This document shows, one piece after another, positions 17,101 to 55,895 of a stretch of 64,000 bases of DNA. Every line of letters starts with the position of its first letter. The stretch's first letter is position 1. The translations under genes were made by a program, and so were the position numbers. The stretch is from contig OX031071.1 of assembly GCA_943736015.1 (NCBI GenBank), positions 27,481,619-27,545,618 of the forward strand. Reading direction: 5' to 3'. Origin of the DNA: Tridacna crocea. Taxonomy: Eukaryota > Mollusca > Bivalvia > Cardiida > Cardiidae. Under the pieces are notes generated by a model that made no database searches, was not told the origin of the DNA, and saw only the letters and a program-made list of their open reading frames with translations.

Positions 17101-20100
17101 ATGGACAATGTGTAGAACCTGTGGTATGAACAACCATAAAACAATGGAATGTCGTCGAAATAGGGACTGGTAGGAAATAGATGACAGACATAATCATACA
17201 CCTTTATTCCTCACTAATAACAATTATAACATTCTTTGCTCGTTGTGTGAAAACTGCAATATCGCTCCATGCATTTGTACTGCGGACAGATGCTTAGAGT
17301 TTAAACCAATAAACTGTAGACTTCCTACACAAAATGAAATAACCAAATTCTTAAATAATGATAATACACATTATATTACCGGTAATGAAATAGAATGTAA
17401 TTCTGATTTAAAGATTCCCGAAAATAATGATATTCAATATCAATCAAGTAGCATAGGTGATTCACACAAAAACGCTCATCTAAGTTCATCTTATACATTG
17501 TGTAGCCCTGAACTTTTACGGTTCAGTGCGGAAGGGTTACATGTTGTGAATTTGAATATTCAGCACTTTTTACCAAAATATGATGAAATTAGAATTATTT
17601 TACATGAAAACAGATTAATAGATATATTCGGGTTTTGCGAATCTTTTTTATCAGATAATGTTCCAGACAAGAACATTATCATAACCGGGTTCAAGTTTGA
17701 ACGTAAAGACAGGGAAAACAAAGCTGGGGGAGGTATAATAGTTTATGTAAAAGATTATATAACATACACACGGCGCTATGATATGGAATTCTCCAACATT
17801 GAATCAATCTGGTTGCAGATAAATACCGATGATAACGCGCAAATCTTAGTAAATTTCACTTACCGCCCTCCAAATAGTCCACAATCTTGGATAGATGAGT
17901 ATGAAAAACAGTTGATATTAGCGGAATCTTCTAATTTAGACTGGTTTGCTATTGGGGATTATAATATCAACTTCTCACCTCCACATTCTTTTACTAATAG
18001 TAAATGGTCAAAAGTGGTGTGTGATTTTGGGCTTCACCAACTTGTTAATACCCCAACTAGAGTAACAAAAAGCTCTTCGTCAATCATAGACCATATTTAT
18101 ACCACGGCTACTAACTATATAGGTGAAATATTTGTTCCTGAAATAGGCGTTAGTGACCACTTTCCAGTAGCTGTCACTTTAAGTAAAAAGTGCAACATCA
18201 AACATTCAAACAGACATAAAGCGATTACATATAGATCTTTTAAGAGTTTTGATAAAAGCTCCTTTTTACATGATATTTATAGAGTCAACTTCGATATTTT
18301 GGAAACGATAAGCGATACAAATTTATTTCTGGATAAATTGTATTATATGTTAAACTGTGTACTCGATAAACATGCGCCGTTAAAATGTAAAAGAGTAAAG
18401 CGGCTACAGCAGCCTGGCTGGTACACGGACGAAGTCAAACAGGCTAGAATTACAAGGGATATGTATAGATCGCATAAAAATTGGGATCAGTATAAAATCT
18501 GGAGAAATAAGTGCGTTTCGATCATAAAAAAGGCTAAAAAATCTTTCTTTAATAATTCAGTCAAAGACAAAAAAGATGCAAAGATTTTGTGGAAAAATAT
18601 AAAACTAGTTTCAAACGAAAATGAACAATGTATATCTGTTCCGAATACTTTAAAGATCAACGATACAATAATTGAGGGAATGCAAAATATAGCTGACGCA
18701 TTGAATGATCACTTTGTAAACATTGCCAAAACGGCAGAAAAGTCACAATTTAATGCAGAAAATTTCATTTCACTTCAACGATTTCTTGATATGAAATTGC
18801 AAAATTCATCTTTTGATATTGATTTTATTACCCCCTATGAAGTTAGTATTCTCATTGAAAAATTGGACACAAATAAATCTTCTGGGCTAGACAAAATAGG
18901 GCCTAATATTTTAAAACTATGCAAAGACCAGGTTGCAAGACCTATTGCAACTTTAATAAATTACAGCTTATCATCTGGCGTTTTCCCAGACAAACTTAAA
19001 GAAGCTGGTGTTGTTCCATTACATAAGGGAGGAAGCAAAGATGACCCGAATAATTATAGACCTATCTCCATTTTGCCAACGTTGTCTAAAATATTCGAAA
19101 GACACGTTGCTAATCAATTAAATAAATATCTACAAAATACCAGCGTGCTTGATGAACGCCAATCTGGTTTTAGACAACATCATTCGTGCCAAACTGCTCT
19201 GATAAGATTAGTTAATTCATGGTTAACGAGCATGGATGAAGGTAATATTATAGGTGCTGTATTCTTAGATTTCAAGAAAGCGTTTGATCTCGTAGATCAT
19301 AAAGTATTACTTCATAAATTAAAACTGTATCATTTCTCTAGTAATGCCTTAAACCTCTTTGAATCCTACTTGACAAATAGAACTCAAGCGATCAGAACTG
19401 CTGTAGTATGCTCAAATTATCTTCCCATAACGTCTGGAGTTCCGCAAGGATCCATACTCGGACCACTGTTGTTTTTATTGTATGTAAATGACTTGCCTCT
19501 TGAAATCAATTCCGATACGGATATGTATGCTGACGATACAACATTTCACTGTAAAGGTAAAAACATTAATGAAATTCAATTAACACTTCAGTCAGATATC
19601 AACAAAACACAACGCTGGTGTATGAAAAATAACATGGCCATCAATCCTACCAAAACCACTTGTATGATGGTAGGATCAAAGCAAAAGTTATCATGCATTG
19701 AAGATCTAAATCTGTATGTTAATAATAACAGGATAACTAATGTCGAATCACAAAAGCTTCTTGGGGTTTACATAGATAAAAACTTAACATGGAAATTACA
19801 CATTGACAAAACATGTAAGAAACTTGTTTCAAAGTTATTTCTTTTGAAAAGGATTCAGTATTTTCTTACACCTGATGTTAAGCAGTTGTTCTACAACGCA
19901 TACATTACACCAATATTTGACTATGGTTGTGTAATATGGAGTAAAGCAAACACGGTTGATATTCATAGAATTACCAAATTACAAACACGAGCAGCTAGAA
20001 TCATGTTAAATGAACACAGGGATAAATCTCCATACGAAATGCTCAGAACTCTAAATTGGTTAGCATTTCCAGTCCGATGCAAATATTTTATAGGCTTATT

Positions 20101-20592
20101 AATTTTTAAAGCCATTAATAACCTAACACCTTCCTATATTTCTGACCTTATTACATTCTCATCAAATAATACTTATGTTTTACGGTCAATAGCTAAAAGG
20201 GATATTTCACACAATAAACCCAATACAAACTATCTCAAAAAGACTTTTAGCTATTCCGGTATGGAAATATGGAATCGAATACCAACAGAAATTAGAAACT
20301 CTCAAAATATCAACACATTCAAAAGTAAATTAAAATCATTTCTTTTTGAAAATTGCTAAAGTTTGAAGCAAAAATATCTATAGATGTTCGAACAGATTGC
20401 AGATACCCATTTCCGTTTATGTCTGTCTTTGAGGTATAACTTCTATTACATGTAATTACATTATTTGTTTTATACTGATTAATTATATAAATATTGTTAA
20501 AGAAGGCATCATTGGAAATAATATTGCCTTAAATAATGTATCATTTTTACATTGATGTGTAATATTAATGATTTACCTTCTGAAAATAAAGA

Positions 20593-20629
<37 letters not shown>

Positions 20630-23600
20630 ATCTGACGGCGGCAGGCTGGTTTACGGGGGATATATATAGCTAGATTGCTCTCGTATCACTTCAAAGTGTT
20701 CATCATTATTATCAACCACAAGATAAATAGATCTAGTTTTTAAGAAATATTTCCTTCCAACAAGTTGCCCCCTAAAGGCAAGGGGCAAGACAAAGCGCCA
20801 GCACCGAACCGCAAAAGAGCAGAGCCCAACCCAGCAATATGCAAGTCTCTGAGTCGCCCTGGTGCTGTTAGAATCGCCATGACGACCATTTCTTATTGTG
20901 AATAGCCTCGGATTTATATTCAGGGGCCCGGGAGTCTGCACTCGGCAGATCGCTATCCTGCCACCTATTAACACCGACAGCCGCCTTCCATCTGCTTTTC
21001 AATCTCCGCCCTACCGCCGGCAGGTATATTGAAATCGCACGGTGGCATGTCGGTAGCATAACGGTAGCAGGCCGGATGCTGGAGAGTGGCAGTTAGTTCC
21101 TACCGATCGCCGGCCGAAGATTGAAGGCCCTCGAACCCCGTGACGACTGAGTAAAAATCGCGCTGCCGCCCGTCTGCCGCTTGATTGCCACCGCGCGACT
21201 ACGAAATGCGCCCGGCCGGCGTCCTGACGACAGCCACAATTGGAAAAAATCGGCCGGTGGCAGTCAGAATTTTAACTTTTTCTTAAAACTTCAGCGGCGT
21301 CCTAGCGGCGTCTAAAATGCCGCCTGCCGCCTGCCGATTGTGCCTGCCACCGAGCTGCCACCGGGCTGCCACCGGCCGAATTTGAGTGAAAACTGGCAGT
21401 TTCTACGCCGGCAGGCGGCATTTAGTGATTTGTGACCGTACTATAACTACTGATAGAATCATGTATAGCCTGGTTTCTTCCGTAGGCTGGTAGACTGGTC
21501 CATCGACATGGAGAAAATCTACAAACAGCAAAATGTTTTGACTTCGCAGACTGCACAGACTGATCTTGGTCGATACTTTTTTCAGATGCAGTAAGTTCCC
21601 TTTTCACAGACCATTGCTCATTCCAAATGTCGACAGGGTTACAGGTGGGATCTTGCATTCCGATGTCTACTTGTTGTTGCCAGTTCACTTGCTGGTGTTT
21701 AATTCGCTATCCTGCTGAATAACTAAATTGCAATTTTCAATTTGATTTTGAAAATCCAAATGCTGTTATTTCAAAGGCATGTTTTGGGGGAATATTGTCT
21801 CTTTATCGGAGAGTATAGATCTGCACTGTTATTTAAGGTAGGTGAGTCCTGCCTGGGAGCTTAACAATTAACCCTTTACCAAACAATCCCTGCTTTTTAC
21901 GGCCCTGAGATAGAAGCCTTTTGAAAACATTGTGGGAAAAGGAGAAAATGCTGGTAACCAGCATTTTCTCCTTTTCCCACGATGTTTTCTACCATGCTGG
22001 AAATGCATTTCAATTTTTGGGTTACGTTTATTTTGTCGTCTGCTAGTGCCGCTAATTTAGATTGGTCCAAAATTTTGTCGTTTGGGAAAGGGTTAAATAT
22101 GTCTTTTTTTAGTGTGTGCAATCGTTTGGTTTTAAGATTCTTTTAAATCGATCATTCATTTCTAAAATCCCGTATTTTTCCAACCCGATTTCATCTTTTT
22201 TAAGACGGCAATTATGAGTTTCTTAAATGGCAATTATGAGTGAGTGAGTGAGTGAGTGAGTGAAAGAACGAATTAATGACATGCGTGGCGAAGTATTCTG
22301 TCCTCAAAGGAATGTAAAACGAAATAAAGAGAAAGGACAATGTAAAAGTGAAGAATAAATTAAGGATATCGATTCAGATGTTTATGTTAATTACGAGAAC
22401 AGTTATGACCCTCGGGCTATATTAACAAACTCACTGATACAGGTAATACTTAGAGCTTAACATTTCTATTCTATTTATAGTATTTGGGTGATGCTTTTCT
22501 TTTCCATTATTTAACACAAAATTTGAACAAGTGCTTAGCTTTAGAAACGGAGGAGAGTGTGTGACTTTTCCTAATTCATCCTCTGTTTTATATCAATTTG
22601 ATCGTAAAAATCCTGAAAGATATTTATAAAGAGACAGATTTATTATTTGTAAAATTTAATGAGGTGTCGATGAAGCCCTGTCGGAATATCGATATGAACA
22701 AAGCCGTCTGTTCGTTCTATAAATTATAAATAAAAGCTGCACGTTCAGCGTACAGGTAGCCCTTATCAGCCGATATAGCTCAGTAGGTAGAGCGTAGGAC
22801 TTGTGAACACATTGTCCTACAGGTTGTGGGTTCGAATCCCCGGCTGGCCAACTTAAAAATTACTAATAGTCTTTCGGATGAGACGTTAAACCGAGGTCCC
22901 GTGTGACGGTGCTACACACCGAGCACGATAAAGAACCAGGCGGAATTCTCAGTAGTTTCGTCCTGTATCCTTGCACTATCCCCCGTAACAACTAACCGTC
23001 TTCTGGGGGCGTCGCTCAGATGGGCAACCGGTAGCGACGATAAATAAACGAAAATAATCAATCAAACAGGTAGCCCTGTAAAAAGCTAAAAGTTGGGCTC
23101 TGCAGAACGGACGCTCCTTCACCCTTCACATTGGTTTCCCCCGTCCCCGTCCCGCCCCGCCCCTGGAGAGAGAGTCCGTCCGTCCGTCCCACCTTGCCAG
23201 CCAAGACGTACCTACTATAGAATGAGTCGAGGAAAATATCGGAGCCGGAAGACTAACTTCTTATCCAATTGCCCGACTATGGAAAAAGGTTCCTAACCAA
23301 ATGTTGACAAGGTTTGTAGTAAAGAATTGAGTGATAGAATTATCAGACATTTTAGTTTAAACAAAAACTAGTGCCTTTTCAAAGTTGTTTGTGCCCAGAG
23401 AGTCTCAGCAAAACAGTCAGTGTATATCAAGATCAAGTTGCACGTTTCATGCAGTCTGATCTTAATCCACACTGACCGCACAGGCAAGTTTAGGTGTGAA
23501 AATGTGTAACATACTATGCTAAATGACGAAGATATTTTTGAACAGAAAAATTAGTGCGACAAATCTTTCATACCCAGACAGTACGGATTCCAATTCATTC

Positions 23601-41339: not shown

Positions 41340-43261
41340 ATTTATGTTATGGAATTCATTTATGATTGGGTGTATGTGATGGGATTCGTGTATGACTGGA
41401 TGTATGTGATGGGATTCGTGTATGACTGGATGTATGCGATGGGATTCATTTATGACAGGAAGTATGTGATGGGGCCCACTTATGACTGGAAGTATGTGAT
41501 GGGATTCATTTATGACAGGATGTATGTGATGGGATTCATGTATGACTGGTTGTATCCGATGGGACTCATGTATGACTGGTTGTATCCGATGGGACTCGTA
41601 TATGACAGGATGTATGCGATGGGACTCGTGTATGACAGGATGTATGCGATGGGACTCGTTTATGACAGGATGTATGCGATGGGACTCGTGTATGACAGGA
41701 TGTATGCGATGGGACTCGTGTATGACTGGATGTATGCCATGGGACTCGTTTATGACTGGATGTACGCGATGGGACTCGTGTATGGCAGGATGTACGCGAT
41801 GGGACTCGTTTATGGCAGGATGTACGCGATGGGACTCGTTTATGACTGGATGTACGCGATGGGACTCGTGTATGACTGGATGTACGCGATGGGACTCGTT
41901 TATGACAGGATGTACGCGATGGGACTCGTGTATGGCAGGATGTACGCGATGGGACGCGTTTATGACTGGATGTACGCGATGGGACTCGTTTATGGCAGGA
42001 TGTACGCGATGGGACTCGCGTATGACTGGTTGTTCGCGATGGGACTCGCGTATGACTGGACGTACGCGATGGGACTCGCTTATGACAGGACGTACGCGAT
42101 GGGACTCGCGTATGACTGGACGTACGCGATGGGACTCGCGTATGACTGGACGTACGCGATGGGACTCGCGTATGACTGGACGTACGCGATGGGACTCGCG
42201 TATGACTGGACGTACGCGATGGGACTCGCTTATGACAGGACGTACGCGATGGGACTCGTTTATGACAGGACGTATGATAGGACGTATTCGATGGGACTCG
42301 TTTATGATCGGACGTATGCGATGGGAGTCGTTTATGTCCGGATGTATGCGATGGGACTCGTTTATGACCGGACGTATGCGATGGGACTCGTTTATGACCG
42401 GACGTATGCGATGGGACTCGTTTATGACCGGACGTATGCGATGGGACTCGTTTATGATCGGACGTATGCGATGGGATTCATTTATGACTGGATGTATGTG
42501 ATGGGATTCATTTATGACCCGAAGTATGTGATGGGACTCATTTATGATTGGATGTATGTGATAGGACATGACTGGATGTATGCGATGGGACATGACTGGA
42601 TGTATGCGATGGGACATGACTGGATGTATGCGATGGGACATGACTGGATGTATGTGATGGAACATAAGTGGATGTTTGCGATGGGACTTATTTTTGACTG
42701 GATGTATGCGATGGGATTCATTTATGACAGGATGTATGCGATGGGATTCATTTATGACTGGATGTATGCGATGGGACTCATTTATGACTGGATGTATGCG
42801 ATGGGACTCATTTATGACTGGATGTATGCGATGGGACTCATTTATGACAGGATGTATGCGATGGGATTCATTTATGACTGGATGGGACTCGCGTATGACC
42901 GGACGTACGCGATGGGACTCGCTTATGACCGGACGCACGCGATGGGACTCGCTTATGACCGGACGCACGCGATGGGACTCGTGTATGGCAGGACGCACGC
43001 GATGGGACTCGTGTATGGCAGGACGCACGCGATGGGACTCGTGTATGGCAGGACGCACGCGATGGGACTCGTTTATGGCAGGACGCACGCGATGGGACTC
43101 GTTTATGACTGGATGTACGCGATGGGACTCGTTTATGATAGGACGTACGCGATGGGACTCGTTATGACAGGATGTACGCGATGGGACTCGTTTATGACTG
43201 GATGTACGCGATGGGACTCGTTTATGACAGGACGTACGCGATGGGACTCGTTTATGACAGG
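41340..43261 (+). repeat. 30-bp minisatellite, left part
   Basis: Units of the form TATGCGATGGGACTCGTT plus TATGACTGGATG repeat every 30 bp, about 64 times. Because 30 is divisible by three and the unit lacks stops in several frames, giant reading frames appear on both strands (up to 724 and 655 codons). They are frame artefacts, not genes. Variant units come in runs (TACGCG, GGCAGG, GACCGG), showing local amplification. A shorter unit at 42565-42660 (GGACATGACTGGATGTATGC) breaks the period. Confidence 0.95.
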
Positions 43262-43469
43262 TGTTACGAGAGACCACTCCTTCCTGCATGGCATATACTC
43301 CCGATTTAAATACAATACCTGGCTACTGCGTCAGGGAGATATCTCTTTGGCTCAGTGGTTAGGGTATTGGCTTTGCGTCCGGGAGTTCGGAGATCGAATC
43401 CCGCTCCGATCCTTATTTCTACCATGCATTTATTCATTTGTTTCTTTGTTACGGACTTCGTTCGTAAGA
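43262..43469 (+). repeat. 5' LTR of the miniature element, with tRNA-like A and B boxes
   Basis: The LTR carries TGGCTCAGTGG (43348-43358), a canonical A box, and AGATCGAATCC (43391-43401), 9 of 11 matches to the B-box consensus. They are 43 bp apart, as in a tRNA gene. A TATA-like TTTAAATA lies at about 43304. A pol III-type internal promoter inside an LTR is the hallmark of Cassandra-type TRIMs in plants (there 5S-derived). Confidence 0.8.
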
Positions 43470-43487
43470 TGGGGGCTCGTCCGGGAT
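43470..43487 (+). promoter_or_regulatory. primer-binding site, proline tRNA
   Basis: TGGGGGCTCGTCCGGGAT is an 18-nt exact proline-tRNA primer site placed directly after the 5' LTR. Confidence 0.9.
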
Positions 43488-43567
43488 TGGCCATTGAGCC
43501 ATTAGTCCCATTTGTTGTCCAAAATCGGACTTCCTGCCTAATAAGGCTTTGAGTGTAAGAGGGGGTG

Positions 43568-43775
43568 TGTTACGAGAGACCACTCCTTCCTGCATGGCAT
43601 ATACTCCCGATTTAAATACAATACCTGGCTACTGCGTCAGGGAGATATCTCTTTGGCTCAGTGGTTAGGGTATTGGCTTTGCGTCCGGGAGTTCGGAGAT
43701 CGAATCCCGCTCCGGTCCTTATTTCTGCCATGCATTTATTCATTTGTTTCTTTGTTACGGACTTCGTTCGTAAGA
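43568..43775 (+). repeat. 3' LTR of the miniature element
   Basis: It has the same length as the 5' LTR, with two substitutions seen by eye (A/G in CTCCRATCC form and A/G before CCATGC). The A and B boxes are intact. It is followed by CAGGACG, resuming the satellite. Confidence 0.88.
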
Positions 43776-44665
43776 CAGGACGTACGCGATGGGACTCGTT
43801 TATGACAGGACGTACGCGATGGGACTCGTTTATGACTGGACGTACGCGATGGGACTCGTTTATGACAGGACGTACGCGATGGGACTCGTTTATGACTGGA
43901 CGTACGCGATGGGACTCGTTTATGATAGGACGTACGCGATGGGACTCGTTTATGACTGGATGTACGCGATGGGACTCGTTTATGATAGGACGTATTCGAT
44001 GGGACTCGTTTATGATCGGACGTATGCGATGGGAGTCGTTTATGTCCGGATGTATGCGATGGGACTCGTTTATGACCGGATGTATGCGATGGGACTCATT
44101 TATGATCGGACGTATGCGATGGGATTCATTTATGACTGGATGTATGCGATGGGACTCATTATGATCGGATGTATGCGATGGGATTCATTTATGACCGGAT
44201 GTATGTGATGGGATTCATTTATGACCCGAAGTATGTGATGGGACTCATTTATGATTGGATGTATGTGATAGGACATGACTGGATGTATGCGATGGGGCAT
44301 GACTGGATGTATGCGATGGGACATGACTGGATGTATGTGATGGAACATAAGTGGATGTTTGTGATGGGACTTATTTTTGACTGGATGTATGTGATGGGAC
44401 TCATTTATGATCGGATGTATGCGATGGGACTCATTTATGATCGGATGTATGCGATGGGACTCATTTATGACTGGATGTATGCGATGGGACTCATTTATGA
44501 CTGGATGTATGCGATGGGATTCATTTATGACTGGATGTATGCGATGGGACTCATTTATGACTGGATGTATGTGATGAGGCTCATTTGTGACTGGAAGTAT
44601 TTGATTGGACTTATTTACATGTATGACTGGATGTATGCGATGGGACTCATTTATGACTGGATTTG
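43776..44665 (+). repeat. 30-bp minisatellite, right part
   Basis: The array continues after the LTR element. From 43991 its variant units follow the same order as those from 42283, including a CGTATTCG unit, a GGGAGTCG unit, the shortened GGACATGACTGG units and a GGAACATAAG unit. This indicates a larger duplication with an offset of about 1.71 kb. Confidence 0.9.
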
Positions 44666-54160: not shown

Positions 54161-55895
54161 TTTGCAGTCTTAATTACAAATCAAATGAATATTCGCAGGT
54201 TTTATTACGAATCGAATGAACATTCACAGTCTTTAACGAAATATTATCACTGTAAGATTATAAGATTATACTTTTGAACAAGCCACATTTGGTATTTTAC
54301 TAACAGCTTGAAATGTTGATTTATTTACAGGATAATGGTTACAACCATCTTTGCAATGGAATGAATATTTGCAGTCTCTATTACAAATACTTGTAGAATA
54401 AATATTTGCAGTCTTTATTTTGAATCAAATGGATTTGTAGCCTTAATAACAAATCAAATGAATTTTCGCAGTTTTCATTACGAATTCAATGAACATTCGC
54501 AGTCTTTATGACAAAGCAAATGAATATTCGCAGTCTTTATTACTAAGTGAATAAATATTCGCAGTCTTTATTACTAAGTGAATGAATATTCGCAGTCTTT
54601 ACTGACGCGAATAAATATTCGCAGTCTTTATTACCAAGCGGACGAATATTCACAGTCTTTATTAAGAAGCGAATGAATACTAGTATTCGCAGTCTTTACT
54701 GACGCGAAAAAAATATTCGCAGTTTTTATTACGAAGCGAATGAATATTTGCAGTCTTTATTATGAAGCGAATAAATATTTGCAGTCCTTTATAACAAAAT
54801 CAAATGAACATTTGCAGTCTTTATTACGAAGCAAATGAATATCCGCAGTCTTTATTACGAAGCAAATGAATATTCGCAGTCTTTATTACGAAGCGAATAA
54901 ATATTCGTAGTCTTTATTATGAAGCCAATGAATATCTTCAGTCCTTTATAACAAATCAAATGAATATCCGCTGTCTTTATTACGAAGCAAATAAATATTC
55001 GCAGTCTTTACTACGAAGCGAATGAATATCCGCAGTCTTTATCATGAAGCGAATGAATACATCTATTCACAGTCCTTTATTACAAATAAAATGATTTTTT
55101 ATCATTTATGATTCTTTATCACGAATAGAATGAATATTTGCAGTCTTTATTACGGATAGAATGAATACATGTATTTGAAGTCTTTATTACAAATCAAATG
55201 ACTTTGCAGTCTTTATTACAAATCCAATGAATATTCGCAGTCTTTGTTACAAATCCAATGAATAGTCGTAGTCCTTATTATGAAGCGAATGAATATTCGC
55301 AGTCTTTATTACAAAGCGAATGAACATTCGCAGTTTTTATTATTAAGCTAATGAATATCTGCAGTATTTATCACAAAGCGAATGAATATTCGCAGTCTTT
55401 ATCACAAAGCGAATGAATATTTGCAGTTTTTATTATTAAGCGAATGAATATCTGCAGTATTTATCATAAAGCTAATGAATATTTGTAGTTTTTATTACAA
55501 AGCAAATGCTAAATACTGAGCCTTTATCACAGAGCGAATGAATATTCGCAGTCTTTATAACGATTAGAATGGATATTTGCAGTCTTTATCACAAAGCCAA
55601 TAAATATTTTCAGTCTTCATTACGAATAGAATTTCTATTTGCAGTATTTATCACGAATCGAATGCATATTTGCAGTCTTTATCACGAATCAAATGAATAT
55701 CTGTAGTATTTATCACAAAGCTAATGAATATTTGCAGTCTTTATCACGAATCGAATGAGTATTTGAAGTCTTTTCCGAAAACTGAATGAATATTTGCAGT
55801 CTTTATCGTGAATCAAATGAATTTAGCATTCTTTATTATGAATCGAATGAATATTCGCAGTCTTTAGGATGTATCAAATGAATATACAGTGTTTA
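54150..55895 (+). repeat. 31-bp degenerate satellite
   Basis: Units like GAATGAATATTCGCAGTCTT then TATTACGAAGC repeat over 1.7 kb, with drift and small indels. GAATATTC is palindromic. Order of variants suggests local unequal exchange. Confidence 0.9.

Follow-up and report, generated by a model that had tools for sequence, protein, structure and literature searches.

A miniature LTR retrotransposon with A and B boxes in its LTRs, and its composites with a Gypsy family, in the genome of Tridacna crocea

The element and its insertion site

Within the window, i.e. the whole 64-kb stretch of DNA analyzed here, we confirmed the presence of a miniature LTR retrotransposon (TRIM) at positions 43262 to 43775, a non-coding element of 514 bp. 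As originally predicted, two LTRs of 208 bp with two differences (at 43409 and 43421 only, 2/208) enclose about 80 bp of non-coding interior, which amounts to 98 bp when the primer binding site (PBS) is counted and is too short for element proteins. The following features were identified.

41359..44662, no strand: 30-bp minisatellite array, a tandem repeat and the insertion target; the joined flanks restore its unit
43258..43261, no strand: left copy of the target site duplication (TSD), CAGG, delimited by the 4-bp rule of the sister copies
43262..43469, + strand: 5' LTR, 208 bp, TGTTACGA...TCGTAAGA, with the same ends as in the best copies fetched
43305..43312, + strand: TATA-like TTTAAATA in the 5' LTR, read from the sequence, possibly serving pol II or, as an upstream element, pol III
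43348..43358, + strand: A box TGGCTCAGTGG of the 5' LTR, a motif read there and exact in 118/120 full LTRs
43391..43401, + strand: B-box position of the 5' LTR, AGATCGAATCC, a variant of this copy, the family having mostly RGTTCGAATCC
43470..43487, + strand: PBS TGGGGGCTCGTCCGGGAT, 18 nt, exact, presumably complementary to the tRNA-Pro 3' end
43488..43556, + strand: non-coding interior, lacking about 18 bp that sister copies have
43557..43565, + strand: polypurine tract (PPT) AAGAGGGGG, followed by TG, read from the sequence and similar in sister copies
43568..43775, + strand: 3' LTR, 208 bp, 99.0% identical to the 5' LTR by LTR comparison
43654..43664, + strand: A box of the 3' LTR, read as a motif
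43697..43707, + strand: B-box position of the 3' LTR, read as a motif, the same variant as in the 5' LTR
43776..43779, no strand: right copy of the TSD, CAGG, read from the sequence

The proline-tRNA primer site predicted directly after the 5' LTR was found there as an exact match, and the predicted PPT was likewise present. The 18-nt PBS, which we take to be the complement of the tRNA-Pro 3' end, had a single match within the 64-kb window at up to three mismatches and none in 100 shuffles; by text match, its letters recur in seven published papers, at least three of which concern murine leukaemia virus. The duplication had been given as GACAGG/CAGG, of which CAGG stands, but the preceding GA belongs to the LTR terminus and is found in both LTRs; since sister copies follow a 4-bp rule, the TSD is CAGG. 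When the element and one CAGG are removed, the flanks join into an unbroken minisatellite unit, and the 24 nt spanning the restored junction occur three times in the array. A search of the 64-kb window with LTR and interior gave no second full copy. A chance repeat was rejected, as the PBS, the TSD and 3171 related blocks in the genome (see below) speak against it.

Elsewhere in the window, positions 17174 to 20359 hold a LINE open reading frame (1061 aa) that encodes an endonuclease and a reverse transcriptase domain. Its closest matches, over residues 560–900, are about 72% identical, and other matches to the reverse-transcriptase part came from a sea anemone (42%), a gorgonian (44%) and oyster and pearl oyster (51%). 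Large tandem arrays lie at 54396–55866 (units of about 31/62 bp) and 1230–1655 (16-bp units).

Copies in the genome and their promoter boxes

The host assembly comprises 1.049 Gb in 31 contigs, among them 18 large ones and C31, of 29 kb, with ND5-, ND2- and ND4-like mitochondrial frames under the invertebrate code (names by reading). Searching it with a 58-nt tRNA-like piece of the LTR and allowing up to three mismatches, we found 1553 + 1618 = 3171 places, against none for the reversed control. Among the 100 matches listed out of the 3171, only the two LTRs of the window copy matched the piece exactly, and the 98 other places had a T at the B-box position that is changed in the window copy. 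For closer reading we sampled the 20 best-matching copies, 40 PBS loci away from the listed tRNA-like places and 20 single-standing tRNA-like places. Together with the window copy these made up 81 loci, of which 14 belonged to a Gypsy family (see below), three held partial LTRs only and 64 had at least one full LTR. The last group consisted of 52 loci with two LTRs, two with three and ten with one. Exact 4-bp TSDs flanked 47 of the 52 two-LTR loci; in the remaining five they were either one base off (L090, L098) or the locus derived from tandem or broken forms (L018, L079, L129). Eight of the ten one-LTR loci were solo LTRs, all eight with exact TSDs, and the other two were a composite (L100) and a broken copy (L111). 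Tandem forms of the type LTR-interior-LTR-interior-LTR were seen in L018, L028 and L104. The two LTRs of a pair were identical in 14 of the 52 loci, with a median difference of 0.96% and a maximum of 9.4%, in a sample skewed to young copies because 20 were chosen as best matches.

Compared with the 514 bp of the window copy, the other two-LTR loci mostly measured 523–534 bp. The interior of the copies read was usually 116 bp long and non-coding (116–118 bp in the 20 best fetched), and where the window copy has its deletion of about 18 bp, sister copies carry a short hairpin with AATAAA. The prediction of a multi-copy TRIM was thus borne out by tRNA-like blocks, solo LTRs and copies with TSDs. 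Three observations had been named that would speak against it, i.e. a single locus, a tRNA-like part confined to this copy and a coding interior elsewhere. What we found instead were the 3171 blocks, other copies that carry the tRNA-like part, and short non-coding interiors, with Gypsy interiors confined to composites among the copies read.

Five further loci (L060, L061, L072, L081 and L088) are older relatives of the TRIM, very roughly 70–84% alike where aligned. One of them, L060 (C1:814368), was considered as a longer partner and rejected, being a diverged relative of the Helenus type (TRIMp3), the group of TRIMs with which the family is compared below. Long hairpins near L009, L013 and L081 fell below the cut-off as microRNA families and are perhaps inverted-repeat DNA transposons. 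An exact 26-mer of the tRNA-like block had no match in viral_contigs.

An A box and a B-box-like sequence at tRNA spacing had been noted in each LTR. Both LTRs do have them, with starts 43 nt apart (43348/43391 and 43654/43697), a spacing that fits a tRNA promoter; AGATCGAATCC, however, is the altered variant of the window copy and not the B box of the family. Such a pair was found in none of 5000 shuffled LTRs and once in ten shuffled windows, and the real window has one more, at 22776. This further pair lies in a tRNA-headed, SINE-like sequence at 22776–23050, with A box TAGCTCAGTAGG, B box GGTTCGAATCC and a body starting with tctttcggatgagacgttaaaccgagg.

Box counts were made on full LTRs, partial ones, some of which have no A box (L079, L111), being excluded. 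The A box was exact in 118 of the 120, while the B-box position read AGTTCGAATCC in 90, GGTTCGAATCC in 23, single variants in five and AGATCGAATCC in two, namely those of the window copy. Because both LTRs of the window copy have AGATCGAATCC, the change either pre-existed in the template used in the last replication cycle or was introduced during that cycle. In 198 sliding windows, the A box was among the three least variable, whereas the conservation of the B box was ordinary, 122 of the 198 being equally or more conserved.

Despite the boxes, the tRNA covariance model (Rfam) matched neither the window copy (E up to 10) nor ten further loci (E up to 1), and ARAGORN found no tRNA in the window or in 13 loci. 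By these searches, the tRNA likeness appears to end at the A and B boxes. A functional tRNA was consequently rejected, it is the boxes and their spacing that justify the label tRNA-derived, and the proposed origin of the promoter from a tRNA or tRNA-SINE stays conjectural. TTTT, the usual pol III stop, is absent from the sense strand of the window copy; by shuffling, the chance of this is 0.05 for LTR plus interior and 0.11 for the LTR alone, and TTTT is likewise missing from 132 of 1274 pieces of this length (306 bp) taken from the window. The absence is hence only mildly unusual, and no terminator was identified. Past LTR position 75, TTTT occurred in three of the 120 full LTRs.

From the boxes we infer that the TRIM is transcribed by pol III. 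Alternatively, they could be relics or an unused captured promoter, in an otherwise ordinary TRIM driven by the TATA-like TTTAAATA, which at 43305–43312 ends 35 bp 5' of the A box. The missing tRNA fold and pol III terminator are in line with this, as is the fate of the B box, which is changed in the window copy and lost in some old copies (L060 and L081, both of which retain the A box). It is difficult to reconcile with the near-invariance of the A box, with a spacing that suits a tRNA promoter, and with the 24 loci chosen by their PBS, whose 47 full LTRs kept the A box in 45 cases and RGTTCGAATCC, i.e. (G/A)GTTCGAATCC, in 44. We consider pol II transcription doubtful and pol III transcription the better reading.

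The Gypsy family and the composites

The original prediction also held that a larger LTR element, sharing the primer site, mobilizes the TRIM in trans. Exact copies of the 18-nt PBS were found at 1386 + 1404 = 2790 places in the genome, against none for the reversed control, and 37 of the 100 matches listed (of 2790) had a listed tRNA-like place no more than 700 bp away. We examined 48 of the other 63, of which 31 were Helenus-type (TRIM, older relatives and the composite L100) and 17 belonged to one Gypsy family; no third kind of carrier was seen among these 48 exact sites, a search by which families with a variant PBS would be missed. A copy of the Gypsy family at C1:115534-123660 (L066) is 8.1 kb long, with 562-bp LTRs that are 99.3% identical and the TSD TCAT. 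Its domain order is gag with SCAN, integrase, reverse transcriptase and RNase H; a stop codon interrupts the frame between two integrase domains, and the frame shifts ahead of the reverse transcriptase. The predicted long partner thus has the PBS in common with the TRIM, but the LTR ends merely as a few terminal bases, the LTRs themselves being different.

The evidence that the two families meet comes from composites, in which they are joined at the shared PBS and of which 17 distinct loci were confirmed by reading. A pattern of Helenus LTR end, PBS and Gypsy interior occurred at 13 places (reversed control 0), all 13 of which showed the join when read, with a whole TRIM LTR in 11 and a partial one in two (L136 and L142). 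These two loci have composite or TRIM LTR pieces beside inverted TRIM pieces. For the opposite join, from Gypsy to Helenus, a first pattern found only L100, and a pattern with the usual Gypsy spacing found nine places. Five of the six read were confirmed (C1:45.6 Mb, C17:7.4 Mb, C5:58.8 Mb, C11:44.2 Mb and C15:27.65 Mb), the sixth, C8:33406097, being rejected since it had no Gypsy LTR match of at least 40 nt; the places outside these six are C5:7445569, C8:46901579 and C5:63093437. Both kinds of join are present in the C1 and C17 composites. In L100, which is flanked by ATCT at either end, positions 1–84 of the TRIM LTR are followed by about 385–562 of the Gypsy LTR, the PBS, the interior of the TRIM and a complete TRIM LTR, so that the family is switched inside the LTR as well. 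The position of the joins at the PBS is in part given by construction, because the patterns were placed at the primer site. On the other side, where the PPT of one family would be joined to the LTR of the other, two patterns of uncalibrated sensitivity found no place.

Matching TSDs were found in seven of the eight composites that could be tested at both ends. Besides L100 with its ATCT, the composite at C1:45596252 has the TSD CTTG and outer Helenus LTRs that are identical over 206/206 positions, C15:27650238 has ATAT, and C5:58784336 has ATGG around one insertion with a Gypsy LTR at its left end and a TRIM LTR at its right end. For three of the seven, namely C11:44220858 (CAAC), C2:4643573 (CAAT) and C15:16596637 (CAAC), the right end was located by a 13-nt pattern of the Helenus LTR end and not by read-through. 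The C2 and C15 loci were picked for this test before the search, and C11 was recognized later among the same hits. The number of hits to this pattern is meaningless, as the reversed control is as frequent (128 places vs 108), whereas their position and strand are informative; by our own arithmetic, a same-strand hit within 8 kb is expected by chance at about 4 to 5 in 10,000 per locus. No Gypsy LTR end with CAAC or CAAT that could serve as right end was present near the C2 and C15 composites, where the Helenus LTR end was found. The eighth, on C18, has ACAT vs CATA and no clean 4-bp duplication.

Alternatively, the composites could postdate integration, with ectopic recombination or gene conversion acting on the 21 bp of homology at the PBS, and would then be uninformative on the partner. 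The joins do coincide with the common 21 nt, albeit after a search directed at that site, and the C18 composite, one of the eight tested, would fit. The seven matching duplications argue against such an origin, as do the identical outer LTRs at C1:45596252. In a study of Triticeae elements (PMC1950507), matching duplications and like outer LTRs are taken as marks of one reverse-transcription cycle and one integration. Formation after integration appears unlikely to us, and given the duplications in seven of eight composites, both families were therefore probably copied in one replication complex. The composite at C5:58784336 supports a single integration event that used one Gypsy end and one TRIM end, a case relevant to the demands that an integrase makes on its two substrates. 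Mobilization in trans by a larger element with the same PBS is thereby supported. It is possible that a third element mobilizes both TRIM and Gypsy. That the TRIM is simply a deleted form of the Gypsy family was rejected as highly improbable, since their common ground is limited to 21 nt (the PBS and 3 nt), the 4-bp TSD and similar LTR termini (TGTTA, CGTAA), while in the comparisons made nothing else was shared, the 562-bp and 208-bp LTRs matching only in scraps of up to 12 nt, the interiors only in the 21 nt, and the best TRIM copies having their own short non-coding interior.

Taken together, we consider it likely that the window copy is an abundant Helenus-type TRIM (TRIMp3), transcribed by pol III and replicated and integrated with the machinery of the Gypsy family. 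Guided by the A and B boxes, pol III would initiate close to the tRNA-like block in the 5' LTR, cross the short interior and continue into the 3' LTR. The TRIM RNA would be packaged and copied together with Gypsy RNA, as the composites support in outline, with tRNA-Pro priming on the common PBS, the Gypsy family presumably supplying the proteins, and the shared machinery integrating both families with 4-bp duplications. Plus-strand strong-stop DNA, which ends in a copy of the PBS, could anneal to the minus strand of the other family and so yield a composite that switches at the PBS; further jumps would be required for L100, for the C15:27.65 Mb composite and for the short stretches of Gypsy sequence at C1 and C18.

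A more specific proposal, on which we are evenly divided, is that a pol III-transcribed TRIM and a pol II-transcribed Gypsy with unrelated LTRs share particles and one integrase by little more than the 21-nt PBS, and that strand transfer at this site keeps yielding hybrids. Hybrids of about 3.4 and 4.5 kb have a TRIM LTR and Gypsy interior at the start and, by pattern, a TRIM LTR at the end. Kojima 2024 (PMC10886601) describes as unknown by what means a TRIM is kept dependent on an autonomous element. If the proposal is true, the PBS alone could determine which autonomous element a TRIM parasitizes. One genome with both parties in recent copies, along with composites, allows direct tests of which partner is chosen, of packaging and of where strands are exchanged.

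Comparison with known systems

Cassandra is a plant TRIM with a pol III-type promoter in its LTR that is derived from 5S rRNA. The element had been called Cassandra-like, and the two are alike in being TRIMs with a pol III-type promoter in the LTR. The promoter of Cassandra is 5S-derived, however, and the window copy has no 5S rRNA match, so that membership was rejected and the comparison does not hold at this point.

A second candidate was biv-TRIM of bivalves, described in PMC6934838 with terminal repeats of 202–218 bp, an interior of 77–80 bp and no clear PBS found. This animal TRIM resembles ours in the length of its terminal repeats and in its solo and tandem forms, but differs in the interior (98 bp here, 116–118 bp in the best copies) and, by reading, in its TGATCCCAAAGGAC and its PPT GGGGAGA, both missing from the window copy. 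Membership was rejected.

The best agreement was with Helenus (TRIMp3), the name that Kojima (2024, PMC10886601) gave to TRIMs whose LTRs contain tRNA-like sequence and which occur in animals, fungi and a plant. According to the same work, animal Helenus elements have 4-bp TSDs, the bivalve families include tRNA-Pro primers, and there are solo LTRs (in fungi) and tandem arrays (in a zebrafish family). The present family shares the short TRIM structure, the A and B boxes in the LTR, the PBS, the PPT and the 4-bp TSD (47/52 two-LTR loci and 8/8 solo LTRs). With two LTRs and a short interior, its 514 bp fall within the 311–1263 bp given there, and it has the boxes listed there (A TRGCY...YGG, B GGTTC), although GGTTC itself is in the minority (23/120) and the window copy reads AGATC. 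The expected animal counterpart, a TRIM with A and B boxes in its LTRs, is hence real, but not unprecedented. In Kojima 2024, Gypsy partners of animal Helenus are proposed from PBS similarity and TSD length, whereas here composites join both families and, through their matching TSDs, indirectly indicate mobilization by Gypsy. We found no report of TRIM-Gypsy composites in animals in the open-licence literature, and the text of PMC10886601 had no word starting with "chimer".

The partner family resembles Gmr1-type Gypsy elements, which, according to PMC8220671, have the integrase upstream of the reverse transcriptase; the assignment is by domain order in one copy. The composites themselves recall the complex elements of Triticeae (PMC1950507), which are TSD-flanked multi-LTR insertions explained by template switching of co-packaged RNAs. 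There, like elements are combined, whereas here a TRIM and a Gypsy with unrelated LTRs are joined at the PBS. The element type is already known, and these TRIM-Gypsy composites seem to be a new addition to it.
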